Positions 229-13,935 of a DNA stretch of 32,157 nt are shown one piece after another (the stretch's first letter is position 1; each line of letters begins with the position of its first letter). The notes under the pieces were generated by a model. That model saw only the letters and a list, made by a program, of their open reading frames with translations, had not been told where the DNA came from and searched no databases. Source of the DNA: Desulfurobacterium pacificum (GTDB lineage Bacteria; Aquificota; Aquificia; Desulfurobacteriales; Desulfurobacteriaceae); contig NZ_FXUB01000007.1 of NCBI RefSeq assembly GCF_900182835.1, positions 1-32,157 on the forward strand. The letters are read 5' to 3'. The translations under genes were made by a program, and so were the position numbers.

Positions 229-1302
229 ATGAAAGTCGCCGTATTCGGATTCGGAAGCCTTAACTACTATCTTAACAAATTGAACGTCCCCGAAAGGTTG
301 GGAGGAGAACCTCCCTACGGCGGTTCAGCAATGGCGTTAGAATTTGCAAAAGCTGGATACGACACGGTTTTAGCAGACCCTAACCTTGACAAAGTTCCAG
401 CTGAAGTCATTAAAAAGTTAGAAGATGCAGGTGTTAAACTAACCGGTGACGACGTTGACGCAGCAGAAGGTGCAGACGTAGCCATCCTGTTTACACCTTT
501 CAGAGCTGGTATCACGTTCAAAGTAGCCGAGACGATTCTGCCTCATTTAGCAGAAAACGGCGTTATATGCACAACCTGCACAATGTCCATACTGGTACTC
601 AACTCTTACCTTCAGAATGCCGTTTTAATGGAAGGAAGAGAAGACGTTGGCTTCTCAACCATGCACCCTGCTGCAATACCGGGGACACCTCAGCACAAGC
701 ACTACTTAATAGCAACGAACGAACTACTCAAAAGACCGATAGTTTCTGAAGAACAGATAGAAAGACTCAAAAAGTTAGCAGAAGATGCCGGCAAGAAAAC
801 TTATCTACTGCCAGCTGAATTGGTTTCCCCTGTGGGGGATATGGGAATTGTGACAACTGCAATAGCCTTTGCCGGCGCAATAGAATACTACAGAGTCGCA
901 AGGGATGTTCTCAAAACGAGACGTTCAATGACAGAGTTTCAAATAGTTCAATCTTTGCAGGTAGTTGCCAGCCTTGTAGCAAAATACGGATTAGGCGGCT
1001 TAATAAAACTTCTAAATATTGACGCCATGAAGGATTCTCTCAAGTCCATGGTTTTAGACGAAAACATACAGAAGACCACGCTCAGCGCTTCCGAAATATT
1101 AGAAAAGCTTCCAGAAATTGCACCGGAACTCTTGAAAGAGGCAGAAACCTTTACACCTTCAGAGCCGTGCCATCCTTCAGCTCCATCACCGATGTTGCTT
1201 AACTACATGGAAGAATTGGTTGGCGATGACGTTTTGAAAGGTATATTAAGAGAAACCTGGAAGAAGTTTTATAGTGACGTATCTCAGAGAGAAGAAAGCT
1301 AA
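229..1302 (+). CDS. hmdII: HmdII, [Fe]-hydrogenase paralogue
   Basis: Paralogue of H2-forming methylene-tetrahydromethanopterin dehydrogenase, which binds the FeGP cofactor and moves hydride between H2 and a C1-pterin. The 357-residue protein starts with a Rossmann domain (GFG at 7-9). GGEPPYGG at 25-32 is a motif I associate with HmdII rather than HmdI. The segment CTTCTM at 114-119 aligns with the HmdI segment carrying the iron-ligand cysteine, making Cys117 the candidate Fe ligand. MHP at 145-147 matches the conserved HP of the family. The HmdI catalytic base His14 is not present: residues 12-14 are Asn-Tyr-Tyr. The start is ATG with GGGAGAG at 217-223. The gene heads an operon with all visible hcg genes, so it is probably loaded with cofactor. 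From memory, a Desulfurobacterium HmdII has been reported to use tetrahydrofolate-type substrates; a sensor or cofactor-carrier role is an alternative. Confidence 0.9.
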   Translation: MKVAVFGFGSLNYYLNKLNVPERLGGEPPYGGSAMALEFAKAGYDTVLADPNLDKVPAEVIKKLEDAGVKLTGDDVDAAEGADVAILFTPFRAGITFKVAETILPHLAENGVICTTCTMSILVLNSYLQNAVLMEGREDVGFSTMHPAAIPGTPQHKHYLIATNELLKRPIVSEEQIERLKKLAEDAGKKTYLLPAELVSPVGDMGIVTTAIAFAGAIEYYRVARDVLKTRRSMTEFQIVQSLQVVASLVAKYGLGGLIKLLNIDAMKDSLKSMVLDENIQKTTLSASEILEKLPEIAPELLKEAETFTPSEPCHPSAPSPMLLNYMEELVGDDVLKGILRETWKKFYSDVSQREES

Positions 1303-1317
1303 TAGGGAGGATGAAAT

Positions 1318-1698
1318 ATGGCAAGCAAAAAGGAGCAATTAGAGAGCATTCTTTCCGACCTTGCAGATTCTTTAGGTTCCGACCTGTTTGGCGCTTTAAT
1401 AGCCACTCCTGACGGTCAGGTTGTAGTTTCCACTGTTCTCAAAAGCTCCCTCAACGACCAGAAGTTAGCAGCTATGGCAGCAGCTGTAGTGGGAACGTCG
1501 GAAAGGCTTGCGAAGTTGGTGGAAGCAGGGGATTTTCACGATGCACTGGTAAGGTGTAGCAACGAAAACATTTTATCCAAGAAAGCAGGTAGAAGGGCAA
1601 TACTGGTGTGCGTTGTAAAATCGGATGCAAACATAGGTCTTCTCAACATTGAAGTAGAAGATGCTATAGAAAGGATTATTTCCGTCTTAGGTTCCTGA
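1318..1698 (+). CDS. Roadblock/LC7 domain protein
   Basis: A 126-residue single-domain protein with the roadblock/LC7 (MglB-like) pattern: an N-terminal helix, then the strand turn LFGALIATPDGQVVVS (residues 23-38), a long central helix LAAMAAAVVGTSERLAKL (50-67), and a C-terminal helix after DANIGLL. Roadblock proteins usually dimerise and bind or regulate small Ras-like GTPases; no GTPase gene is in this window. The ATG has GGGAGGA upstream and lies 15 bases after hmdII. Its stop overlaps the hcgA start (TGATG at 1696-1700), so it is clearly in the operon. Its role in cofactor assembly or HmdII control is unknown. The domain call is good; the function is not assigned. Confidence 0.8.
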   Translation: MASKKEQLESILSDLADSLGSDLFGALIATPDGQVVVSTVLKSSLNDQKLAAMAAAVVGTSERLAKLVEAGDFHDALVRCSNENILSKKAGRRAILVCVVKSDANIGLLNIEVEDAIERIISVLGS

Positions 1699-2573
1699 TG
1701 CTGGTAGAGATAACCTCTACCATACACGTTAGCAACTACTGTTCTCTGCCGGTGAAGTGTCACTTCTGTGGATTCGCAGCAGGCACTTCGCCGGAAGGTT
1801 ACTTCCAGAACTTTTCACGACTATCTGAAGATGTAAAAAAAGCCGCCATATCCATTGAAAAAAGTGGAATAAAGAGAGTTAGTCTATCTGCAGGTTATGG
1901 GAATTTTTCATTAATTCTCAGAGCTTTAGAAACGGTAAAAGAACACACTAACCTGAAAGTTTTAATCAACGTAGGCGGAGACTTAGATAAACAGAAAATA
2001 AAAACGTTAAAGTCGGCCGGCGCAGATACCATCTGCTGCAACTTAGAAACTACAAATAGAGAGCTATTTCAAAAACTAAAGCCATCAGACTCTTTTGAAC
2101 AACGCTTAAAAGTGTGCTTCTGGATTAAAGAAGAAGGGATAGAACTCTCTTCTGGGATTCTATTAGGTATAGGTGAAACGGAAAAAGACAGAGAAGCACA
2201 TATAAAGCTCCTGAAAGAAATAGAAGCAGAAGAGATACCTATCATGAGATTCCAGCCTTACAGAGGAACACCTCTTGAGAACAAACAACCTCCTCCTATA
2301 CCAACGCTAATCAACCTCATTAAAAAAGTAAAAAATGAAATTAACCCTAAACGAATCACTATTCCATTTCCCACTATTGACTACAACAATTTGATAGAAG
2401 TCATCAAGGCAGGCGCTACAAATATTGCCACCGTTATCCCTGAAAACTATCCTTTCATAGTGAAAGGAGTGGCAAAACCGGAAGCAGGAATATTAGAAAA
2501 AATCCTCCCCCTCCTCTCCTCCGCCAACATCAAAACAAACGTTAAAACGCGAGAAGCCGATGCTAAACTTTAA
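1698..2573 (+). CDS. hcgA: HcgA, radical SAM enzyme of FeGP cofactor synthesis
   Basis: A BioB/HydE-like radical SAM protein of 291 residues. The iron-sulfur motif is Cys15-X5-Cys21-X2-Cys24, the unusual CX5CX2C spacing known for HcgA instead of the normal CX3CX2C. Further radical SAM features are SLSAGYG (about 62-68) and GILLGIGET (about 153-161), which resembles the GxGET segment of biotin synthase-type enzymes. HcgA is thought to act early, in building the pyridinol ring of the cofactor. The start ATG overlaps the roadblock stop by one base, and the 3' end overlaps hcgBC by 14 bases. I recall archaeal HcgA proteins as longer at the N-terminus; here the cluster motif begins almost at once. 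Confidence 0.9.
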   Translation: MLVEITSTIHVSNYCSLPVKCHFCGFAAGTSPEGYFQNFSRLSEDVKKAAISIEKSGIKRVSLSAGYGNFSLILRALETVKEHTNLKVLINVGGDLDKQKIKTLKSAGADTICCNLETTNRELFQKLKPSDSFEQRLKVCFWIKEEGIELSSGILLGIGETEKDREAHIKLLKEIEAEEIPIMRFQPYRGTPLENKQPPPIPTLINLIKKVKNEINPKRITIPFPTIDYNNLIEVIKAGATNIATVIPENYPFIVKGVAKPEAGILEKILPLLSSANIKTNVKTREADAKL

Positions 2574-3729
2574 AAACGCTTACCTTGAATCCCTAACGGG
2601 CAACCGAAAAGGTGACAAACCTGAAGAAACAGAAAAAATCGTAGAGCTGCTCAAAAAGGGAATGTTAGGTATAGCAACGAACAACTACAAAAAATTCCTG
2701 ATAGCCAAAAAAGTCGCTCAAAGCTTTGGAATAAAGAGTGTCCAACAAATAACTATTCCAACAAACTGTTTTGACCTGACTCCCATTCCAGCTCTCTCAA
2801 AAGCAACTGCCGGTAGTTTCATTTCAGACTGCGACTTCCTGTTAGCCCGCGGAAGGCTTGGCGCTCCAGGAAGCGGCGCCCTGACAGTCCTGATTCACAA
2901 AAGCGGCGCAATAGTTTCAGCCGTAACGTCCCCTCCCTCCCACATTCACAAGCTCCCCTTAGAACAAGCCTTAATAGCCAACGTATCAGCACTTTTCCAG
3001 CGGTTAGGAATGAAAAGAACCGGGAAAGGCATAACCGAAAAAACAGAAACAATCTACTCAAACGCTACATTCTTAGACCTGATACGAAAAATAGCAGAAA
3101 AAAAAGCAAAACTCTTAAAAACCTTTAAAGGAAATTCACTTTTAATAATCGGCGGCTACCTGTGGGGCGCATTCCTGCCAAAACTGCTCAAAGATAACTT
3201 TCAAGAAATCTACATCTACGACATCAACCACGACGTTCTCCAGTTATGCTCTACTATCTCAAAAGCAAAACAGCCTGAAACAGACAAATTTGACCTTATC
3301 ATAGACCTTACAGGTTACGGCGGCGTAAAAGTGGAAAAAGAAAAAGCAGGCAAATTCACGGCTAAAATCACAGTGAGCGAAGAACCGTCGGCAGACAGAA
3401 AACTAAAAACCGAAAAATCCCCCCACTACCTCCTCAAACTCAAAAACCGCAACTTCAACACAAGCGGAACGATGACCCTCACCGTCAAAATCTCAAGAAA
3501 TGCCGCAGATAGAGCAGAAAAAGAACTCCCCATCCTCTACGCAGTTCCACAGCTTTCCTTCTTTGAATCCCTGCTCTTTGAATTCTCATCTCCAGACTCT
3601 TTCCTGAACGCCCTCAACAATCCTATCCTGTCCGTTTCAGCCCCAAAGGGCAAAGTAAAAAGCGAAGACCTTGACGAAATCATAGAAAAAGAGGTGGGAA
3701 ACCTTGAGTTTATCCTTGAAAGAGTTTGA
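2560..3729 (+). CDS. hcgBC: HcgB-HcgC fusion, guanylyltransferase plus SAM methyltransferase
   Basis: A 389-residue protein that reads as two Hcg enzymes in one chain. Residues about 30-155 look like HcgB, the ITPase-fold enzyme that joins GMP to the pyridinol. Supporting features are GIATNNYKKF (37-46) near the start of the fold and ARGRLGAPGSGALTVLI (96-112), the conserved glycine-rich segment. Residues about 165-389 look like HcgC, the SAM-dependent methyltransferase of pyridinol C3, with a Rossmann start SLLIIGGYLWG (193-203) and the acidic strand end IYIYDINHD (217-225). In methanogens these are separate genes. No other hcgB or hcgC is present here, which supports the fusion. The assignment of each half is from family knowledge and motifs; the exact boundary is uncertain. 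The start ATG lies inside the hcgA end and has only a weak purine tract. Confidence 0.75.
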   Translation: MLNFKNAYLESLTGNRKGDKPEETEKIVELLKKGMLGIATNNYKKFLIAKKVAQSFGIKSVQQITIPTNCFDLTPIPALSKATAGSFISDCDFLLARGRLGAPGSGALTVLIHKSGAIVSAVTSPPSHIHKLPLEQALIANVSALFQRLGMKRTGKGITEKTETIYSNATFLDLIRKIAEKKAKLLKTFKGNSLLIIGGYLWGAFLPKLLKDNFQEIYIYDINHDVLQLCSTISKAKQPETDKFDLIIDLTGYGGVKVEKEKAGKFTAKITVSEEPSADRKLKTEKSPHYLLKLKNRNFNTSGTMTLTVKISRNAADRAEKELPILYAVPQLSFFESLLFEFSSPDSFLNALNNPILSVSAPKGKVKSEDLDEIIEKEVGNLEFILERV

Positions 3730-4387
3730 AGAAATCGTAGAAACGCTCGCACCAAAATCGTTCATAATGGAAGGTGACTTCTATGGCTGGTTGAACTCAC
3801 CGCCCAAAAAGATAGATTCTGTTGCCGTCGCCGTTGACCTGCCCTCTAATCTTATAGGTTGCTCCGTCCTCATTCTCCATCACAAACCCCTCACCGTTCC
3901 CGAAATACCCACATTCATTCTCCACACGCCCCTTGACAGGTGCAACGGCGGATGCCACGAAGCCCTTTTAAACACTTTCGGATTTAAAACCTTCCAATAC
4001 ATCAAAGACAGATTAGGCGTCTTCACAAAAACGCACATAACTCCAGAAGAACTGCTGAAAAAAGCAAAAGAAACCTTTAAAAACGTCCCCTTACGATACC
4101 GCTTCTTCAAAAGAGAAATCAAGAAAGTTGCCTTTTTTAGCGGTTGCGGTCTCAACTACTTCCCATTCCTGAAAGAATGCGAAAAACTAAACGTTGATGC
4201 CGTAATATCCGGCGACCTGACCCACAAGTCCTGCCAGTTCCTCCTGCACAACAGAATAAGCTTCATAGATGTCCCGCACCCGCTAACGGAAGTTTTCGGC
4301 GTAAAAAAGTTTGCAGAAAAGCTGTCAAACTACGTCAAAACAACCTTCATACCACCGGAGGTTCCATTTGACGTTTGCGTCGGCTGA
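3704..4387 (+). CDS. hcgD: HcgD, NIF3-like iron-binding protein
   Basis: A NIF3-family protein of 227 residues. It shows the usual metal-ligand pattern: ILHHKP (57-62) with paired histidines, ILHTPLDRCNGG (72-83) matching the HTxxD segment, and SGDLTHKS (169-176) followed by VPHPLTE (190-196) matching the C-terminal GHxxTE ligands. HcgD binds two irons and is proposed to supply iron to the FeGP cofactor. The start is TTG at 3704, with GGTGGGA just upstream; a second TTG at 3716 is possible. The gene overlaps the end of hcgBC by 26 bases, which suggests translational coupling. General NIF3 proteins are also found outside this pathway, but the context makes HcgD the better name. Confidence 0.88.
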   Translation: MSLSLKEFEEIVETLAPKSFIMEGDFYGWLNSPPKKIDSVAVAVDLPSNLIGCSVLILHHKPLTVPEIPTFILHTPLDRCNGGCHEALLNTFGFKTFQYIKDRLGVFTKTHITPEELLKKAKETFKNVPLRYRFFKREIKKVAFFSGCGLNYFPFLKECEKLNVDAVISGDLTHKSCQFLLHNRISFIDVPHPLTEVFGVKKFAEKLSNYVKTTFIPPEVPFDVCVG

Positions 4388-4868
4388 ATGCTTTACCCAC
4401 TGCCAGATAGGAATAAAAATCCACCACCTCTCCGCCCCCTACACTCCCAACCCCTTACCGCTAAAAGTTGTTTTTGCAGGATTTTTCCCCACCGTAGAAT
4501 CGGCAGAAAAGCTCTTAAAAATCAAACTACCAAAACCCCAACATACAATAAAAGGAATAAAAGTTTACGACGAAAAAACAGACCTTGAAGCAGCGTTTCT
4601 ACTTGCAAGAGGCGTAAAGGATATTTTCAACGCCGAAATAGCCATCGGCTCATCTGCAGGAATAGGCAGAGGCGCCGTAGTCATAATCTACAACGAGAAA
4701 ACCTACTTCCTGCGCTCTCAAGTAAGCGCAAACCTTTTAGACTCAAGTGCCGAAGAGATAAAAGAGCGCAGCCAGTCTGCTGCCGAGCTTACGGTAAAAG
4801 CCATAATTTCCCTCGTCAAACACAAAAAAATCCCCCCTTTCCTGGAGGCGCTGAATTGGATGAAGTAA
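4368..4868 (+). CDS. hcgF: HcgF, thioester-forming enzyme, TTG start
   Basis: HcgF binds guanylylpyridinol and forms a thioester with it through a conserved N-terminal cysteine (Cys9 in the methanogen protein). Here the start was chosen at TTG 4368: GGAGG lies at 4357-4361, six bases before it. The resulting 166-residue protein begins MTFASAECFTHC, placing the candidate catalytic cysteine at residue 8, next to the expected position. A longer reading from ATG 4311 would add 19 residues encoded inside hcgD and is unlikely. Residues around 100-112 (IAIGSSAGIGRGA) give a glycine-rich segment. The gene overlaps hcgD by 20 bases and hcgE by 13. Confidence 0.85.
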   Translation: MTFASAECFTHCQIGIKIHHLSAPYTPNPLPLKVVFAGFFPTVESAEKLLKIKLPKPQHTIKGIKVYDEKTDLEAAFLLARGVKDIFNAEIAIGSSAGIGRGAVVIIYNEKTYFLRSQVSANLLDSSAEEIKERSQSAAELTVKAIISLVKHKKIPPFLEALNWMK

Positions 4869-5500
4869 AAAAGTTAGAAGAAAAGCTCAAACCCTTTGGC
4901 TCTCTCCTCCTTTTAGGTGCAGGAAGGCTCGGCTTTAGAGTATTTGAAAAGCTAATTCAGGTTCACAGAGGAGGCTTCAAAAAAATAACCGTCTTTGACG
5001 GCAGCAGAATTGACGGAAAAGACGCTTACCACCTATCAAAAGGTGCCAGAATAGGTGAAAAGAAAGTGGAATTTCTAAAAAGGCTCTATCCCGTAGAGCG
5101 AAATTACAGAATTGTAGAAACGTTCGGAGTTAACTTCTCAAAAGAACACTTCCATCTAATAAAAAACCACGATGTAATCGTCTCCACAATAGCCGGAGGA
5201 AACACACTTAACTTAGTCGCTGCCATTTCAAAGGAGGCAGAAAAACACGGCATCCCCCTAATTACAACAAACGGCGTATTTGGCTTTGGCGATGAAGAGG
5301 TAAAAGTAGAAAAACTACAAAAGGCAGGCGCAGGTCCCGCCCTCTACCTAAAAAAGCTAACCGGCGCTGAAAACGTCTTCGTCGTTGGAACGGGAAAACT
5401 GATAAAAGACGGACTCCCCATAACTTCAACCATACTTGAAAACGTTGCCGAAAAGATAGCAATACTTTCTCTTAAACTACTTTACGGGAGAAAAACATGA
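4856..5500 (+). CDS. hcgE: HcgE, E1/ThiF-like adenylyltransferase
   Basis: A ThiF/E1-like Rossmann protein of 214 residues that is expected to adenylate the carboxyl group of guanylylpyridinol with ATP before HcgF takes it over. Visible features are the nucleotide-binding loop LLLLGAGRLGFRVF (18-31), the acidic strand end ITVFDGSRID (44-53) and ISTI-like VSTIAGGN (109-116). The protein contains no cysteine at all, so it has neither the CxxC zinc pairs nor the catalytic cysteine of many E1-like proteins, which agrees with adenylation only. The start is TTG 4856 with GGAGG at 4844-4848. It overlaps hcgF by 13 bases and hcgG by 4 (ATGA). Confidence 0.88.
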   Translation: MDEVKKLEEKLKPFGSLLLLGAGRLGFRVFEKLIQVHRGGFKKITVFDGSRIDGKDAYHLSKGARIGEKKVEFLKRLYPVERNYRIVETFGVNFSKEHFHLIKNHDVIVSTIAGGNTLNLVAAISKEAEKHGIPLITTNGVFGFGDEEVKVEKLQKAGAGPALYLKKLTGAENVFVVGTGKLIKDGLPITSTILENVAEKIAILSLKLLYGRKT

Positions 5501-7014
5501 AAGAGCTGATAAAAGGTGCAATTGAAGGTAACTTTGAAAGCAAAAAGTCCCTCATGGAAGAAGGCAGGAAAAATCCCGAAAACCTCCTCTCCACACTCAA
5601 AACTTTAACAGACGAAGAACTCCAGCGTTTAGGAACGGAAATGAAGGCGTTTCCGTTCGGCTGTAACGTGATAGAAACCCTCGTTGATGTCGTGAGCTTG
5701 AAGCAAAGCATAGACGAAATAAAAGGCGCCTTCAGACTTACAGACCGTTTAGGCTTCACCGTCCACGTCTGCTCATACGTTGTTGCAGACTTAGCAGAAA
5801 GAGAAAACAAAACGCCCCTTGAACTTTTAAAAGAACTAAGGCAGCTAACGGACATGCCGATGGATGCAGACCACTTCGGCGCATCTGGACCTATGCGCTA
5901 CCCCGAATACATCTCAAAATGCCCCGCCTACTGCTACAAAGAAGGCAAAGGATTTAACGGATGCCCGAGAGGAAGAATTCACAGAAGGCTGATAGAAAAA
6001 GAAAAACTCTACGAAAACGAAAAGGAAGGCTGGGCAGAGCTTGTCCAGTCAATAAGCGTCAGCCTAATGTCTTTCCAGAAAGAAACCTCTCATTCGGCTT
6101 CTAAGGAAGAAACTCTTTCAGTTATAAAGTTTGCAAAAGAAAGAGGCAAAGGGGTCGGCGCAATCATATGCGTAGGAAACGGCGAAGACGAGCTATTGAA
6201 AGGACTAATAGCCTGCATGGAATACGACATAGATGAAATCGTTATAGAGGGAGGACCCTACAACACGGCAGAAAACAGACCGAGAGCCTTTGGAGAAGCA
6301 ATTGTTGCTGCAAGAATTCTCTCAAAAGGCAAAATTGTAGCCTCAAACGGACAGTATGAAGATGAACTGAGGTTTGGATTAAGGTGCGGACTCAACAGCG
6401 TGATAACAGGATTTCCCGGCAACCACCACGCCTACATGTCCGGTTACTATCCCGAAGAGATAACCCCCGACAAGTTCGGTCTTCCAAAAGTTGTAGAGGT
6501 AATGAACCAGGAAATCAAAAAATCCCCCTTCCCCGTCCCATCAGACAGAAAAACGATAGAAATCATAACGGCTTCTGCAAAGTTTTTAGGCTTTGAATAC
6601 CTCTACCCTTCTTTTGAGTTATGCGGCATTCCTTTAGGCGACGCCCACTGGTTTTTAACTCTCTCTTCACCGCTTGGCAAAAAGGTAAAAACGAACTTCA
6701 CACTCAAATCGGTGAAAGAGCTAATAACAGAAAGGAAAGTAAAAAGGCTGGGGATTTTAGGAGCAAGGTTCTTAAGCTGGGGAATTGCCCACCACCTTTC
6801 AGACGTTGTAGAAGAAGTTCACATAAGCGATAAAGACCTAAAAGCTGAAGAATCCACATTTAAAGTGCTTTCAGAAAGCCTGCCGATAAAGGTAAAAAGG
6901 CACTACGGAAGCGACGCTTCCTGCATTGAAAGTTCAGACCTTACAGTTTTAGCATCATTCATTCCAGAGCTAAAAGAAAGGTTCCGCCAGATAGAAAAAG
7001 TAATTCTTTTATAA
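5497..7014 (+). CDS. hcgG: HcgG, FeGP cofactor biosynthesis protein
   Basis: The last gene of the operon, 505 residues. It is recognised as HcgG by its size, its position with the other hcg genes and a distinctive body including KCPAYCYKEGKGFNGCPRGR (141-160). Its chemistry is less settled than that of the other Hcg proteins; together with HcgA it is a candidate for ring synthesis or for forming the acyl or CO ligands. Cysteines 142, 146 and 156 (CX3CX9C), with 56 and 92, could hold an iron-sulfur cluster. Residues about 415-440 (VKRLGILGARFLSWG) start a second Rossmann-like segment, possibly the part called fibrillarin-like. The ATG overlaps hcgE (ATGA) and GGGAGA precedes it. Confidence 0.83.
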   Translation: MKELIKGAIEGNFESKKSLMEEGRKNPENLLSTLKTLTDEELQRLGTEMKAFPFGCNVIETLVDVVSLKQSIDEIKGAFRLTDRLGFTVHVCSYVVADLAERENKTPLELLKELRQLTDMPMDADHFGASGPMRYPEYISKCPAYCYKEGKGFNGCPRGRIHRRLIEKEKLYENEKEGWAELVQSISVSLMSFQKETSHSASKEETLSVIKFAKERGKGVGAIICVGNGEDELLKGLIACMEYDIDEIVIEGGPYNTAENRPRAFGEAIVAARILSKGKIVASNGQYEDELRFGLRCGLNSVITGFPGNHHAYMSGYYPEEITPDKFGLPKVVEVMNQEIKKSPFPVPSDRKTIEIITASAKFLGFEYLYPSFELCGIPLGDAHWFLTLSSPLGKKVKTNFTLKSVKELITERKVKRLGILGARFLSWGIAHHLSDVVEEVHISDKDLKAEESTFKVLSESLPIKVKRHYGSDASCIESSDLTVLASFIPELKERFRQIEKVILL

Positions 7015-7015
7015 A

Positions 7016-7041
7016 AGGGAAGGGGATTACTCCCTCTCCCT
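7016..7041 (-). terminator. Terminator hairpin between hcgG and the MscS-like gene
   Basis: AGGGAAGGGGA (7016-7026) pairs with TCCCTCTCCCT (7031-7041) around a TTAC loop, with one mismatch and one G-U pair. On the minus strand it is followed by TTTT, so it mainly ends the MscS-like transcript, whose stop codon lies in the loop. It may also slow plus-strand transcripts leaving hcgG. Confidence 0.65.
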
Positions 7042-8145
7042 CAAAAATAGCTTTTTCAATACCTCAGCCGCAACGTCTTTACCGCCAAACCCAAAAGCAA
7101 GGGCAAATGCAAGTCCAAGCCCTATTGAGATAGAGAATACAACGATTTCTATAACTCTGCCGGAAACTCCAACGTAAGGTAGCGCTATAAATATAGCAGC
7201 AACGATAAACGCAGCCTTTATCAGCTTTCCTATTTCTCTGTTTTCCACTCTGCTTTCAAATATTGAGCCAAAGTAAGCACCTGCAAAAACGATGGCAGAG
7301 GCAACAACTAACTTGAAGGCTATTACCGTGAACTTGTAGGTAATTGAGTAAAGCGCCTGAGCTTCAATGTAGTGAAAAGCTTGAGAAAGACCTATCAAAA
7401 CGGCAAAGGCAACAATCACGTATCTGACAAGCTCGTCAAACTTTAACTTATCGGAAGAAATTCCAACAACTTTGGCAATCTCGTCAAAGTTAAGCTCGTT
7501 AACGATTTTTGACGCAACGTCAGCTACGAACCTGCCAACGTAGTAGATAATTGCAAAGATAATTATCGCAGCTATGATTCTTGGAACGGCATTTAAAATA
7601 GAACCTATCATGGCAATGGCAGGTTTTGAAATAGCTTCTATTTGCAGAGCGTTAAGCGCAGCTATGGCAACGAACAGAAGAATCATAAGGTAAACAAAGT
7701 TGGCAACGGCACCGCTCAAATCCTCTATGCCGTATTTCTCACCAATCTCTTTAATCTGGAACGTGTCAAGGAGCGAGTGAACGAACTCTTTTGCAATCTT
7801 TGCAAAAAATCCCCCCGCCACCATTATCACAACAGCACCAATCAAGTTCGGCAGGTAAGCACCAACCTTGTTCAGAAGGTCAAGAAACGGTTGCGTCACA
7901 TACTTAAGTCCTAAAACTTCTAACACTGCAACGGCAGTTACTAAAAGAATCAGGTAGTAAACCAGGTCTCCTGCACTTTTTGGCAGGTCCTTCTGCTTCT
8001 TCAACACCTCAAAGCGCTCAAAAATTGCCCTAACGCCCGCACCTGCAAGAGCAGCAATAACCCAACCGATAACTGCAATTACAACGGCTTTAACCGCAAC
8101 AATTGCGTAAGGTATCACTTCCTTCCAGATGCCGTAAACCTCCAT
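7027..8145 (-). CDS. MscS-like (CmpX/TM-helix repeat) membrane protein
   Basis: A very hydrophobic 372-residue inner-membrane protein with about nine predicted membrane spans, grouped in repeats of the kind seen in TM_helix/CmpX-type small-conductance mechanosensitive channel relatives. Examples are residues about 12-35, 63-82, 98-116, 150-170 and 190-215. The end (IGLGLAFALAFGFGGKDVA) resembles the glycine/alanine-rich pore helix of MscS. The cytoplasmic beta domain that follows this helix in true MscS is missing, because the protein stops about 12 residues later. GGAGGCGGG precedes the ATG. It is transcribed alone. An osmotic-release function is possible but not shown by the sequence. Confidence 0.75.
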   Translation of the reverse strand: MEVYGIWKEVIPYAIVAVKAVVIAVIGWVIAALAGAGVRAIFERFEVLKKQKDLPKSAGDLVYYLILLVTAVAVLEVLGLKYVTQPFLDLLNKVGAYLPNLIGAVVIMVAGGFFAKIAKEFVHSLLDTFQIKEIGEKYGIEDLSGAVANFVYLMILLFVAIAALNALQIEAISKPAIAMIGSILNAVPRIIAAIIIFAIIYYVGRFVADVASKIVNELNFDEIAKVVGISSDKLKFDELVRYVIVAFAVLIGLSQAFHYIEAQALYSITYKFTVIAFKLVVASAIVFAGAYFGSIFESRVENREIGKLIKAAFIVAAIFIALPYVGVSGRVIEIVVFSISIGLGLAFALAFGFGGKDVAAEVLKKLFLRERE

Positions 8146-8231
8146 TTTCCCGCCTCCTTAAATTTTGTTAAACTATACTAAGTAGAAATATATGAAAATT
8201 TTCTCACTTTTCAAATAATTTTCTTTACATA
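8146..8231. other. AT-rich spacer upstream of the MscS-like gene
   Basis: Very AT-rich. On the minus strand it contains a possible -10 (TAGTATAGTTT, about 8168-8178) ahead of the MscS-like gene and several TTTTC/TTGAAA -35-like words, but no pair with good spacing. No terminator hairpin for vapBC is evident. Confidence 0.3.
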
Positions 8232-8606
8232 TTAATAAAATTCTTCCTCACTCAACATCGGATAATGCTTCTTATTGTATGTCCACAACTTCATCCCCCT
8301 TTTCTTAGCAGTTGCAGCAATCAAAGCATCTGCAAGCTCAACTGAATGAGATTTTCTAAACTTTCTAACAAATTCTCCTGCAAGTTCCCCGGTTTCTCTA
8401 TCTATTGGAATAACAGGAATAGCTTCAAGTAACTCTCTGGTTTCTAATTCCTCTCTTTTGCGCATACCGGCAAAAATTTCAGCAATCTGAACAGGCGTTA
8501 TGTAAAGTTTCCCCCTCGTTTCTTTTATTGCCCTTTCAAACTTCTCTTTAACTTCCTCATTTCCTCGCAATACCCAAATCAGCACATCAGTATCTATAAC
8601 TATCAA
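8232..8606 (-). CDS. vapC: VapC-type PIN-domain toxin
   Basis: A 124-residue PIN-domain ribonuclease, the toxin of a type II toxin-antitoxin pair. It begins MIVIDTDVLIW, with the first catalytic Asp at residue 5. ITPVQIAEI (36-44) supplies the conserved acidic residue, and SVELADALIAATA (88-100) holds the third acidic position (ADALIAATA is a typical PIN signature). The end LWTYNKKHYP matches the usual LxTxNxxHF. Known members cut specific tRNA or rRNA and are neutralised by the neighbouring antitoxin. It overlaps the antitoxin gene by 20 bases and is translated after it. Confidence 0.9.
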   Translation of the reverse strand: MIVIDTDVLIWVLRGNEEVKEKFERAIKETRGKLYITPVQIAEIFAGMRKREELETRELLEAIPVIPIDRETGELAGEFVRKFRKSHSVELADALIAATAKKRGMKLWTYNKKHYPMLSEEEFY

Positions 8607-8844
8607 TCCTTTCCCCTCTCCTTAACTCCCTAACGAAAGTTTCAACATCTATCTGTTTATCTTTCCAGGTACCAAAAGCTCTGCCAAGAACTCTTAAAAG
8701 TTTTTCTTCTCTCACACTTTCTTCTTTAAAAACTTTTCTCAACTTCTCAACCATTATCTCAGAAACCGTCTTACCAGTCCTTTTGCTCTCTTCACTAAGT
8801 AAGGAAAAAAGCTCCTCATCTAAACTTATCTGCATCTGCTTCAT
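8587..8844 (-). CDS. vapB: VapB-type ribbon-helix-helix antitoxin
   Basis: A small basic/acidic protein upstream of the PIN toxin. Residues 1-45 fit a ribbon-helix-helix fold: the strand KQMQISLDEELFSLL, then two helices with TGKTVSEIMVEKLRK between. The C-terminal part would bind the toxin. The start was set at ATG 8844 (85 residues) because GGGGA at 8850-8854 sits five bases before it. An in-frame GTG at 8856 and an ATG at 8847 are alternatives, but GTG 8856 has no ribosome site of its own. RHH antitoxins normally repress their own promoter, expected in the 8845-8983 spacer. Confidence 0.82.
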   Translation of the reverse strand: MKQMQISLDEELFSLLSEESKRTGKTVSEIMVEKLRKVFKEESVREEKLLRVLGRAFGTWKDKQIDVETFVRELRRGERIDSYRY

Positions 8845-8983
8845 CATATTCCCCACAATTATTTATACCTATAGATTAATCCTCAAGCACCACACCTGCA
8901 AAGATTATACCCCCACTATTTGCCTCACAAAAAAAGTATTATACATTTTGTTAGCCGACACCCCCTAAAAGCGAGGCTGAAAG

Positions 8984-11077
8984 ATGGGAAAAAAACTCCT
9001 TATCGTAGAGTCACCTGCCAAAGCCAAAACGATTCAAAGATACTTAGGCAAAGACTTCATAGTCAAAGCGTCTATGGGACACGTAATTGACCTGCCAGAA
9101 AAAGAGTTCGGCGTTGACATAGAAAAAGACTTTAAACCAAAATACGTAACGATAAAAGGAAAGGACAAAATACTCAAAGAGATAAAGAAAACGGCAAAAG
9201 AAGCAGAAGCCGTTTACCTTGCAACAGACCCGGATAGAGAAGGAGAAGCGATAAGCTGGCACATAGCCAACGCCCTTAAAAGGTTGAAAAAAGACGGCAT
9301 ATATAGAGTCCGCTTTCACGAAATAACGAAAAAAGCTATAGCTGAAGCCGTTAAAAACCCGGATAAAATAGACGAAAACAAAGTAAACGCCCAGCAGGCA
9401 CGCAGAATATTGGACAGAATCGTCGGCTACACGATTTCTCCTCTCCTCTCAAAAAGGTTCAAAAAAGCTCTCTCAGCAGGTAGAGTTCAGTCAGCAGCGC
9501 TAAGGCTCATCTGCGACAGAGAAGAAGAAATCAGAAAGTTCGTTCCAAAAGAATACTGGACCGTTGAAGCCACATTTGAAAAGGAAAAGAGCGAGTTCCC
9601 GGCAAAACTCTACGCCGTTGACGGCAAAAAGTTAGACAAGTTCTCAATAGAAAACGAAAAACAGGCTAAAGAGTTAGTTGAAAGGGCAAAATCCGCAGCG
9701 TTCACAGTTACCCGCGTTGAAAAAAAGGAAAGGCGCAGAAAACCCTATCCGCCTTTTATCACCTCAACGCTCCAGCAGGAAGCTTCAAAACGGTTCGGAT
9801 TTCCAGCAAAAATGACCATGCAGATAGCCCAGCAACTCTACGAAGGTATAGACTTAGGAAGCGAAAGGGTAGGTTTAATTACCTACATGAGAACGGACTC
9901 AACGAGAGTGTCGGACGAAGCAGTTAAAGAAGCAAGAAAGTTCATAAAAGAAGCGTTCGGCAAAGAATCCTTGCCTTCAAAAGCAAGAGTTTACGAAACA
10001 AAAAGCGCCAGCGCACAGGACGCCCACGAAGCGATAAGACCAACTTCCGTTTTCAGAACGCCAGAAAGCGTAAAGAAGTACTTAACGCCAGAACAATTCA
10101 AGCTCTACGACCTAATCTGGCGCAGATTTGTAGCTTCACAGATGAAAGACGCCGTTTTCAACACCGTATCTACAGACATAGAAGGCAACGGTCTTACCTT
10201 CAGAGCAACCGGAAGCACGCTAAAAGATGAAGGCTTCCTTAAGGTTTATCCGGTAGAAGTAGAAGAAAAGCTCCTGCCGCCGCTGGAAAAAGGCAATTCA
10301 GTTAACCTCAAAGAAGTTAAAGGCGTTCAGCACTTTACAGAACCGCCCCCAAGGTTCACAGAAGGAACGTTAGTAAAGGCGTTAGAAGAGGAAGGAATCG
10401 GCAGACCATCAACTTATGCCACAATCATCTCAAACATCATCCAAAGAGGCTACGTTGACAAAGAAAAGCAGAAGCTAAAACCGACAGAATTAGGCGAGTT
10501 CATCAACTCCATACTTAAAAAGCTGTTCCCAAGAATAGTTGACATAAAGTTTACCGCCTCCATTGAGGAAGAGCTGGACAAAATAGAAGAAGGAAAAAAA
10601 GACTGGAAAGAACTGCTGAAAGAGTTCTACTTCGGAGAGTTTAAGAAAGTTTTAGAAAATGCAGAAAAAGAGCTTAAAAACATAAAGGGCGAAGAAATAG
10701 GAAGAATTTGCCCCGAATGTGGCGCTCCGCTTTTAAAAATTCACGGGCGCTACGGAGCGTTTATAGCCTGTTCAAACTACCCAGAGTGCAAGTACAAAGA
10801 AAGCCTAAAAGAAAAAGAGGAAAAGACAGGAGAAAAGTGTCCTAAGTGCGGCGGTGAACTGGTGATAAAGAAAGGAAGGTTTGGAAGGTTTATAGCCTGT
10901 TCCAACTATCCAGAATGTAAGTACACTGCCCCCATCACTTATGGAAAGTGCCCAAAGTGTGGCGAAGGAGAAATAGTAGAAAGGAGAAGCAAAAAAGGTA
11001 GAATATTCTACGGCTGCAGCAGGTATCCGAACTGCGACTACGTTTCAAACAAACCGCCAGAGGGAGCGAAGAAATGA
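8984..11077 (+). CDS. topA: DNA topoisomerase I
   Basis: Type IA topoisomerase of 697 residues, which relaxes negative supercoils by cutting one strand. The Toprim domain comes first: Glu9 in LLIVESPAK and DPDREGE (82-88) with the metal-binding acids. The active tyrosine is Tyr301 in LITYMRTDST. SAGRVQSAALR (164-174) is another type IA signature. The C-terminus (about 575-690) holds three four-cysteine zinc fingers, each of the CPxCG...CxxYPxC form. Length and layout fit a standard bacterial TopA; this is not a reverse gyrase. The ATG follows GAGG at 8973-8976. It overlaps the following phosphoesterase gene by four bases (ATGA). Confidence 0.97.
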   Translation: MGKKLLIVESPAKAKTIQRYLGKDFIVKASMGHVIDLPEKEFGVDIEKDFKPKYVTIKGKDKILKEIKKTAKEAEAVYLATDPDREGEAISWHIANALKRLKKDGIYRVRFHEITKKAIAEAVKNPDKIDENKVNAQQARRILDRIVGYTISPLLSKRFKKALSAGRVQSAALRLICDREEEIRKFVPKEYWTVEATFEKEKSEFPAKLYAVDGKKLDKFSIENEKQAKELVERAKSAAFTVTRVEKKERRRKPYPPFITSTLQQEASKRFGFPAKMTMQIAQQLYEGIDLGSERVGLITYMRTDSTRVSDEAVKEARKFIKEAFGKESLPSKARVYETKSASAQDAHEAIRPTSVFRTPESVKKYLTPEQFKLYDLIWRRFVASQMKDAVFNTVSTDIEGNGLTFRATGSTLKDEGFLKVYPVEVEEKLLPPLEKGNSVNLKEVKGVQHFTEPPPRFTEGTLVKALEEEGIGRPSTYATIISNIIQRGYVDKEKQKLKPTELGEFINSILKKLFPRIVDIKFTASIEEELDKIEEGKKDWKELLKEFYFGEFKKVLENAEKELKNIKGEEIGRICPECGAPLLKIHGRYGAFIACSNYPECKYKESLKEKEEKTGEKCPKCGGELVIKKGRFGRFIACSNYPECKYTAPITYGKCPKCGEGEIVERRSKKGRIFYGCSRYPNCDYVSNKPPEGAKK

Positions 11078-12267: not shown

Positions 12268-13935
12268 TTGTTGCATCTTACAAAAAGAGAATTAAATTCA
12301 ATAGAAATTTGCATTTTTATTTTGGCGGTAAGCAGGGTGGAGTGGAGGATTTTTCTATCAGAGGAAATAGTTAAATCCTCAGAGTGCATAGATTACTTTA
12401 AAGATTCCTACATCATTGAATTCCTCAGGCTGCTTTCAGAAATTCCCCAAGAAGAAGCTCTTGAAACTCTAAAGAGAAAGCTTCAATCCATCTCTAAATC
12501 TTTCAACACTCTTTTTCCAAAAAACCTATCAGAAGCCGAAATACCTGTAAAGGTCAAAGAGCTGATAGAAAACAACCAACCCTTACTGCTACCCTCCTCC
12601 CTAACGATAGTAAAAGTGGACTCTTCGTTTTTCATGCTTTTCCTGAAAAAACTGAAAAATAAATTTTTCCTGGCATTAGCAGAACTTGACTGCTCAGTCG
12701 CCGAAGATAGCCAGATTATAAACGAAAGTCTCGTCATAGAATACATAAGCAACCTGGTAAAGAACGGCGACAGATTCTTAATCCTATCCGTTGACATTGA
12801 AAACTTTTCCAGAATAAACGACAGCTACGGCATAAAGGCAGGCGACAGAATACTTTCAGAAATACTGAAAAGGTTAAAAGAAACGTTAGAAGACTGCAAC
12901 AGCAAAGTATTCAGATTTTACTCCGACAAATTCATCATCGTCCATCACCACGACTGCGAAAATCCCCTCAAAGAACTCAAACCCATAGTCAGCAAGGTTT
13001 TAGACGTTTTCAAAGAACCTTTTTCAACCAACGGCAAAAAGGTATACGTAGTCCCCAACATCGGCGCATCGTTCTTCCCTGAACACGGAGAAAGCGTTTT
13101 GGTAAAAGCAGAATTAGCCCAGAAAGAAGCGTTCCTGAGACAGGTGCCTCTCATCGTATTCTCAGAAGATATCGGCATCTCAGAAAAAGTCCTTGAAATA
13201 CTAACCAAAATAAAAGAAGACCTTAAAGAGAACAGGATAACAATATACCTGCAGCCAAAGGTTGACCTGAATTCAGGCGAAATCATAGGTGCAGAAGCGT
13301 TGATGCGCTGTTCCGTCCCGCCAGGCGAAGCGATTCCAGTAATCACAGAATACGGTCTCCTTTTTGATGTCGGCGAAGTCATACTGAAGAAAAGTCTCAA
13401 CGTTTTAAGAAGGCTTGAAAGGTTAAACGTTAATATTCCCATTTCGGTAAACGTATCCTACTCTCAACTGATAGATAAAAGGTTCATTCCTCTAATAGAC
13501 AAACTCATCAAAAACTACCGAATCAACCCGGAACTTTTAGTGTTTGAGATAACAGAAACAGAAGCAACCAAATGCACAGAAAACCTGATGGAAACGTTAG
13601 AAGAGATTAAAAAGCGGAAGATAAAACTCTCAATTGACGATTTCGGAACCGGATACTCTTCTCTATCAAGGCTCAAACTCCTGAAAGCCTGGGAAATCAA
13701 AATAGACAAAAGTTTCATTTTGAACTTAGACAGAAACATAGAAGACAAAAGCATCGTAAAGTTCATAATAGACATAGGAAAGCTTCTATCTTTAGAAGTT
13801 GTAGCCGAAGGCATAGAGAAACAGGAACAGATAGATATACTCAAAGAGTTGGGATGCTACAAAGGACAGGGATTTTTCTTCTACCCTCCGCTACCGGTAG
13901 AAGAGTTCTTCAACCTGATAACGAAAAAACGTTAG
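12268..13935 (+). CDS. c-di-GMP phosphodiesterase (EAL) with degenerate GGDEF
   Basis: A 555-residue cytoplasmic protein with three parts: an N-terminal region with no recognised domain (about 1-150), a GGDEF fold (about 155-300) and an EAL domain (about 310-553). The GGDEF signature is replaced by YSDKF (218-222), so cyclase activity is unlikely; the domain may bind GTP or act structurally. The EAL domain looks active: QPKVDL (329-334), EAL (343-345), SVNVS (393-397), EITETE (427-432), DDFGTG (457-462), KIDKSF (478-483) and VAEGIE (512-517). It should degrade c-di-GMP. The start is doubtful: TTG 12268 has no ribosome site, and downstream GTG 12337 is possible. The gene's last bases overlap tlyA, tail to tail. 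Confidence 0.88.
   Translation: MLHLTKRELNSIEICIFILAVSRVEWRIFLSEEIVKSSECIDYFKDSYIIEFLRLLSEIPQEEALETLKRKLQSISKSFNTLFPKNLSEAEIPVKVKELIENNQPLLLPSSLTIVKVDSSFFMLFLKKLKNKFFLALAELDCSVAEDSQIINESLVIEYISNLVKNGDRFLILSVDIENFSRINDSYGIKAGDRILSEILKRLKETLEDCNSKVFRFYSDKFIIVHHHDCENPLKELKPIVSKVLDVFKEPFSTNGKKVYVVPNIGASFFPEHGESVLVKAELAQKEAFLRQVPLIVFSEDIGISEKVLEILTKIKEDLKENRITIYLQPKVDLNSGEIIGAEALMRCSVPPGEAIPVITEYGLLFDVGEVILKKSLNVLRRLERLNVNIPISVNVSYSQLIDKRFIPLIDKLIKNYRINPELLVFEITETEATKCTENLMETLEEIKKRKIKLSIDDFGTGYSSLSRLKLLKAWEIKIDKSFILNLDRNIEDKSIVKFIIDIGKLLSLEVVAEGIEKQEQIDILKELGCYKGQGFFFYPPLPVEEFFNLITKKR

Follow-up and report, generated by a model that had tools for sequence, protein, structure and literature searches.

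HmdII of Desulfurobacterium pacificum is encoded with a Roadblock protein in an FeGP-cofactor operon, a linkage shared with methanogens and suggestive of a sensor role

HmdII, a paralogue of [Fe]-hydrogenase first described around 2000, has long lacked an explained role, and earlier ideas of a scaffold, store or sensor lacked a partner protein. Here we analysed a 32,157-nucleotide stretch of the Desulfurobacterium pacificum genome (NCBI RefSeq assembly GCF_900182835.1, contig NZ_FXUB01000007.1, positions 1 to 32,157, forward strand; hereafter the window), which carries at 229-7014 an operon for HmdII and for biosynthesis of the iron-guanylylpyridinol (FeGP) cofactor, and find that a Roadblock/LC7 protein of the MglB type is encoded directly downstream of hmdII. 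The initial annotation of the window had listed the other genes of this region correctly and had omitted the Roadblock gene, which is the most informative part of the operon. The hmdII-hcg operon in itself is not new, being already known in kind; what appears to be new is that Roadblock and MglA-type GTPase genes are linked to hmdII in two domains of life. We found no paper joining HmdII with Roadblock proteins, including under the locus names MJ1338-MJ1340 and MJ0714-0715, in a search of openly accessible literature, to which the 2019 report on HmdII does not belong. We consider the chances evenly balanced that FeGP-carrying HmdII serves as the sensor input of a small-GTPase/Roadblock switch rather than mainly as an enzyme of one-carbon (C1) metabolism.

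The hmdII-Roadblock pair in Desulfurobacteriaceae

The Roadblock frame at 1318-1698 is an independent gene, preceded by a ribosome-binding site of its own; its product scores 36.6 bits against PF03259 (cut-off 23) and its profile matches MglB structures at 8e-12. An AlphaFold model built from four sequences was too poor to be informative, with a predicted local distance difference test (pLDDT) score of 43. We ruled out that it is the ordinary MglB of the genome, a protein of 160 residues that is encoded separately on contig 3 and that tblastn with the window Roadblock protein as query does not recover at E<1. Among 136 genomes of the phylum Aquificota, HMD occurs in eight, all from one family (Desulfurobacteriaceae) and spread over four genera, and HcgG in ten. 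Wherever the contig allows the comparison, the operon order including the Roadblock gene is identical (genomes G123, G116, G124-G127 and, in part, G128), and the Roadblock gene directly follows hmdII in all 12 bacterial copies, four of them second copies located away from hcg. In G123, which we take to be very probably Desulfurobacterium thermolithotrophum, the shared organization extends to the HcgB-C fusion, and the HmdII of that species (PDB 6huy, 6huz) is 78% identical to the window protein. These structures, together with Watanabe et al. 2019 (as cited in PMC7460606), bear out the initial annotation's statement that an HmdII of a Desulfurobacterium had already been studied.

The second hmdII genes, found in four genomes of genus g4, encode proteins 57-61% identical to the window HmdII, and each has its own Roadblock gene next to it. 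In the HmdII tree the bacterial sequences form a clade with 100/100 support, whose two sub-clades correspond to the two copies, a topology indicating that the hmdII duplication is old and that hmdII and the Roadblock gene were duplicated together. Across genera, identity to the window proteins is 74-84% for the Roadblock protein versus 35-62% for the Hcg proteins. On their strand, the second pairs (L021, L023, L025, L027) come immediately after rpoN (sigma-54) and glnE, seen in L021, L023 and L025, followed by an unknown gene and one of protein-kinase-like type.

The genome of the window also encodes an MglA-type GTPase (family c30; G000, contig 4, 83882) with the P-loop GKYNAGKT and the motif FMGVPGQ. 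In G123 and G116, the genes of c30 and of two further families, c17 and c18, precede hmdII on the same strand; D. thermolithotrophum, described as a different genus, has the GTPase three genes upstream of hmdII, whereas in the window genome it is on another contig. Each of the 12 genomes with this type of Roadblock protein, eight of them with HmdII and four without, encodes the c30 GTPase (GxPGQ), and a single further genome has a c30 fragment. In the four HmdII-less genomes the HmdII-type Roadblock gene adjoins c18-c17-c30, and because their Roadblock sequences nest within the HmdII-linked ones, HmdII has probably been lost from them. Since the pair persists in genomes where HmdII was probably lost, the GTPase and the Roadblock protein are the core and HmdII the attached input. 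The GTPase and Roadblock genes are neighbours in these four relatives, in G123 and G116, where the GTPase gene precedes hmdII, and in 12 archaeal loci, and not in the window genome. As for the accompanying families, the top PDB matches of a low-confidence AlphaFold model of c17 (one sequence, pLDDT 56) are all of the MglC/MglB/roadblock type, profile comparison of c17 and c18 with Roadblock proteins gave no significant match, and c18 has a weak DUF4388 (PATAN-like) match in one homologue only.

HmdII loci of methanogens

The archaeal survey covered 36 genomes around Methanocaldococcus sp. SG1 (Methanococcales), from which 39 HmdII loci were fetched; Methanobacteriales and Methanopyrus lie outside this set. 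HmdII exceeds the family cut-off in 29 of the 36 genomes, and a Roadblock gene is located within one gene of HmdII, on the same strand and with varied flanks, in 18 of the 39 loci: 12 have the order HmdII>GTPase>Roadblock, four have Roadblock>HmdII with a V4R/DUF2507-type sensor protein next, and two have HmdII>Roadblock. The linked loci include L103, which is M. jannaschii MJ1338 (342/342 residues match PDB 4yt2), and there are three further Roadblock-linked HmdII loci (SG1 L016, L185 and L186). At the level of genomes, the Roadblock protein is present in 28/29 with HmdII (one truncated at a contig end) and strongly matched in 0/7 without it (Fisher p about 1e-6, relatedness not corrected for). 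The archaeal GTPases have the P-loop GSSDVGKTT and the G3 motif FFGTPGQ, and because FGTPGQ lacks the aspartate of other Ras-type GTPases, a mark of the MglA family, their motifs place them as MglA-type. In two loci the GTPase between HmdII and Roadblock is split into two frames (L016, 11131-11570; L119, 6986-7536), by sequencing error or decay. The small methanogen genomes G166 and G168 hold about five to seven HmdII copies, several in tandem and with no adjacent Roadblock gene (L128, L129, L130, L134, L135).

The HmdII and HmdIII proteins of methanogens (MJ1338, MJ0715; MMP1716) belong to the same family as the window protein at 42% identity, with the cysteine kept, His14 lost and the same Roadblock partner, often with the GTPase between; the archaea differ in that they also have Hmd and methanopterin, and in that hcg lies outside the HmdII cluster. 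A purely positional linkage, with hmdII inserted by chance into a GTPase/Roadblock cluster and making no functional contact, seems to us quite unlikely: although four bacterial genomes retain Roadblock and GTPase but no HmdII, and conserved synteny within a clade inflates the counts, the pairing has been maintained in both domains amid different flanks and in several arrangements (HMD-GTP-ROBL, ROBL-HMD, HMD-ROBL) as well as in both copies after the ancient duplication, and Roadblock presence tracks that of HmdII.

Further genes of the archaeal loci point to regulation and perhaps to motility. An EarA-like gene (PF07381, 8e-34 to 2e-37), EarA being an archaellum activator, and a methyltransferase gene precede the cluster on the same strand in the Methanococcus-type loci L118, L120, L121, L122 and L117, with intergenic gaps of 7, 63, 11 and 19 bases in L118. 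In G158, G159 and G171, a FIST-FIST_C-TrmB protein, which combines ligand-sensing and DNA-binding domains in one chain, adjoins the Roadblock gene, and in G136/G141 a FIST protein is encoded upstream of HmdII. In M. maripaludis, EarA is MMP1718 and is co-transcribed with MMP1717 (PMC7515710), while MMP1716 is HmdII (PMC1852104), and this order therefore fits the EarA-preceded clusters. Under nitrogen limitation, M. maripaludis HmdII falls along with flagellins and chemotaxis proteins (PMC2723118); a review (PMC3600222) has it rising, in conflict with the decrease in that primary proteomics.

HmdII as a candidate sensor

The window HmdII scores 333.5 bits against TIGR01724 (hmd_rel; cut-off 167.2) and 364 bits, also over cut-off, against NF009208, versus 79.7 bits against the Hmd enzyme model TIGR01723, below its equivalog cut-off of 341.5. 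Its Cys117, near-invariant in the HmdII alignment, aligns with the iron-binding cysteine of Hmd, and His146 is likewise kept. The Hmd residue His14, present in the archaeal Hmd of L181, is Tyr14 in the window protein and tyrosine in every HmdII aligned. The initial annotation had left the role of the protein open between a folate-type C1 reaction, a sensor and something else; a sensory or regulatory role is favoured here because FolD and MTHFR are present, the reconstituted HmdII of D. thermolithotrophum is listed at 8 mU/mg, and HmdII is genetically linked in both domains to Roadblock and MglA-type GTPase partners.

We regard it as unlikely that HmdII is a working H2-dependent methylene-tetrahydrofolate dehydrogenase that feeds electrons from H2 into folate C1 metabolism. 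By the title of its published description (Watanabe et al. 2019, cited in PMC7460606), D. thermolithotrophum HmdII uses tetrahydrofolate derivatives; the window genome encodes the folate enzymes FolD and MTHFR, and the active-site cysteine and His146 are kept. The activity of the reconstituted protein is, however, listed as 8 mU/mg, compared with hundreds of U/mg for Hmd (PMC7460606 Table 1), the catalytic His14 is replaced throughout, the step is already covered by FolD in every family member, and the Roadblock/GTPase linkage is left unexplained. Indeed, a role as sole methylene-tetrahydrofolate dehydrogenase is ruled out by the presence of FolD in all 22 Desulfurobacteriaceae genomes searched.

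Scaffold and sensor roles of HmdII have been put forward earlier and are recorded as untested proposals in PMC7460606, which cites Fujishiro et al. for a sensor role on other grounds. That HmdII binds FeGP (PMC3087415), and that hmdII sits in the cofactor operon here, would suit a scaffold, store or carrier of FeGP with the Roadblock protein as assembly or chaperone partner. We judge this improbable, given that the bacteria have one or two HmdII proteins only and no Hmd enzyme to store cofactor for, that the Roadblock gene is retained even by second bacterial copies and by most archaeal ones, which are remote from hcg, and that active Hmd is formed in M. maripaludis when hmdII is absent (Lie et al. 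2013, as described in a citing paper).

Most economically, HmdII is read as a sensor for H2 or C1 state that works by way of a small-GTPase switch. In such a switch, FeGP built by the Hcg proteins would, in D. pacificum, be taken up by HmdII through Cys117; FeGP-HmdII would bind H2, a folate C1 ligand or both, and its open/closed change would be passed on to the co-encoded Roadblock protein, which, by analogy to MglB, would set the GTP/GDP state of the MglA-type small GTPase. The output in methanogens would probably be transcriptional or motility control, as the EarA and FIST-TrmB neighbours of the HmdII-GTPase-Roadblock cluster suggest. More tentatively, HmdII may be the first FeGP-based sensor, in bacteria and methanogens alike reading H2 or the C1-folate/pterin state and switching the GTPase via the Roadblock protein to control motility or expression (hydrogen-seeking; EarA in Methanococcus).

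Several observations weigh against a sensor role. The contact between HmdII and the Roadblock protein, the ligand, and the direction and output of the signal are inferred, and in archaea roughly every second HmdII locus, strongly duplicated ones included, has no adjacent Roadblock gene. On the bacterial side, c30 lies outside the operon in the window genome, the second-copy hmdII loci have no adjacent GTPase gene, the G4 motif of the bacterial GTPases is degenerate, and retention of Roadblock and GTPase in four HmdII-less genomes implies a role for the Roadblock protein without HmdII. Furthermore, M. jannaschii HmdII is reported to bind ProRS and tRNA (PMC4394549), which is another possible role.

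The proposed switch resembles the MglA/MglB polarity switch of Myxococcus, which likewise pairs a Roadblock protein, as GTPase-activating protein or guanine nucleotide exchange factor, with a small GTPase bearing an MglA-type G3 motif, and differs from it in having an iron-cofactor protein as partner, which is new. In the conservons of Streptomyces (CvnA-D), a sensor, a Roadblock protein and an MglA-type GTPase are also encoded together; their sensor is a histidine kinase, in place of the hydrogenase paralogue proposed for the present system. Group 4 MglA proteins occur almost only in methanogenic Euryarchaeota and their genes had no conserved neighbour in a 2014 survey (Wuichet and Sogaard-Andersen 2014, PMC4316618); the archaeal GTPases, with their MglA-type G3 motif, are putative members, and this methanogen-specific group gains a candidate input. 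A Roadblock partner and an MglA-type GTPase output, conserved in two domains, make the role of HmdII a question for binding and GTPase assays, and a sensor role would explain why non-methanogenic bacteria keep a cofactor pathway of seven activities. If H2 is the signal, HmdII would add a third chemical type to the [NiFe] and [FeFe] sensors of H2.

Genes of the operon and of the remaining window

The operon comprises eight same-strand genes with short gaps or overlaps (Table 1), and Pfam and NCBIfam matches support the earlier claim that hmdII and all seven activities of FeGP biosynthesis (HcgA-G) are encoded in it, every Hcg assignment holding.

Table 1. Coordinates of the hmdII-hcg operon in the window and evidence for each gene
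Gene or product	Position	Strand	Evidence
hmdII, [Fe]-hydrogenase paralogue	229..1302	+	TIGR01724 over cut-off; alignments; PDB 6huy 1.8e-189
Roadblock/LC7 (MglB-type) protein, 126 residues	1318..1698	+	PF03259 3.8e-9; roadblock/MglB matches in PDB
hcgA, radical SAM, CX5CX2C motif	1698..2573	+	TIGR03957 5e-95; PF04055
hcgB-hcgC fusion (guanylyltransferase + pyridinol methyltransferase)	2560..3729	+	PF11576 7e-48 at 4-151; PF06690 3e-43 at 156-383
hcgD, NIF3/DUF34 family	3704..4387	+	PF01784 4e-25; TTG start, GAGG upstream
hcgF	4368..4868	+	PF06787 7e-47; TTG 4368 preferred over TTG 4311
hcgE, ThiF/E1-like	4856..5500	+	PF00899 6e-7; position; 49-54% identity in relatives
hcgG, radical SAM 'fibrillarin-like' FeGP protein	5497..7014	+	TIGR03958 2e-158 over cut-off; PF10113 5e-159

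HcgA reaches 318 bits against TIGR03957, 2.7 under the cut-off of 320.9, and carries CSLPVKCHFC, an instance of the CX5CX2C motif that is universal in HcgA (PMC3087415). HcgD and HcgE are assigned by superfamily match together with conserved position, and HcgB-C is fused in every bacterial relative with a full gene. For hcgF, the later start codon is the more likely one because GGAGG lies upstream of it and the homologues align from there.

The genome (1.59 Mb, 99.9% complete) holds a single HmdII copy, and a search of it for McrA found none, in agreement with the initial annotation, which had seen no methanogenesis genes. Its view of the cluster as settled also stands: in guanine-plus-cytosine content the operon genes (0.40-0.46) resemble the remaining window (0.37-0.46), and the HmdII proteins of bacteria, drawn from four genera, group in a single clade with full support, so the operon is settled in the lineage. 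Recent acquisition is ruled out by this ordinary composition and by the long stem of the single bacterial clade.

A different arrangement is found in a relative, G121 (98% complete, 120 contigs), where locus L152 (G121:C92:15000-31929) carries hcgA-BC-D-F-E-G at 4394-9738 on the minus strand. A divergent unrelated gene stands before hcgA, with no hmdII or Roadblock gene there and no HMD match in the genome, so that either FeGP is synthesized without a known user or hmdII falls in an assembly gap. Elsewhere in the window, a PIN-domain protein and a small upstream partner gene at 8232-8856 on the minus strand are likely a VapBC-type toxin-antitoxin pair, and a GGDEF-EAL protein (cyclic-di-GMP turnover) is encoded at 12268-13935 on the plus strand.

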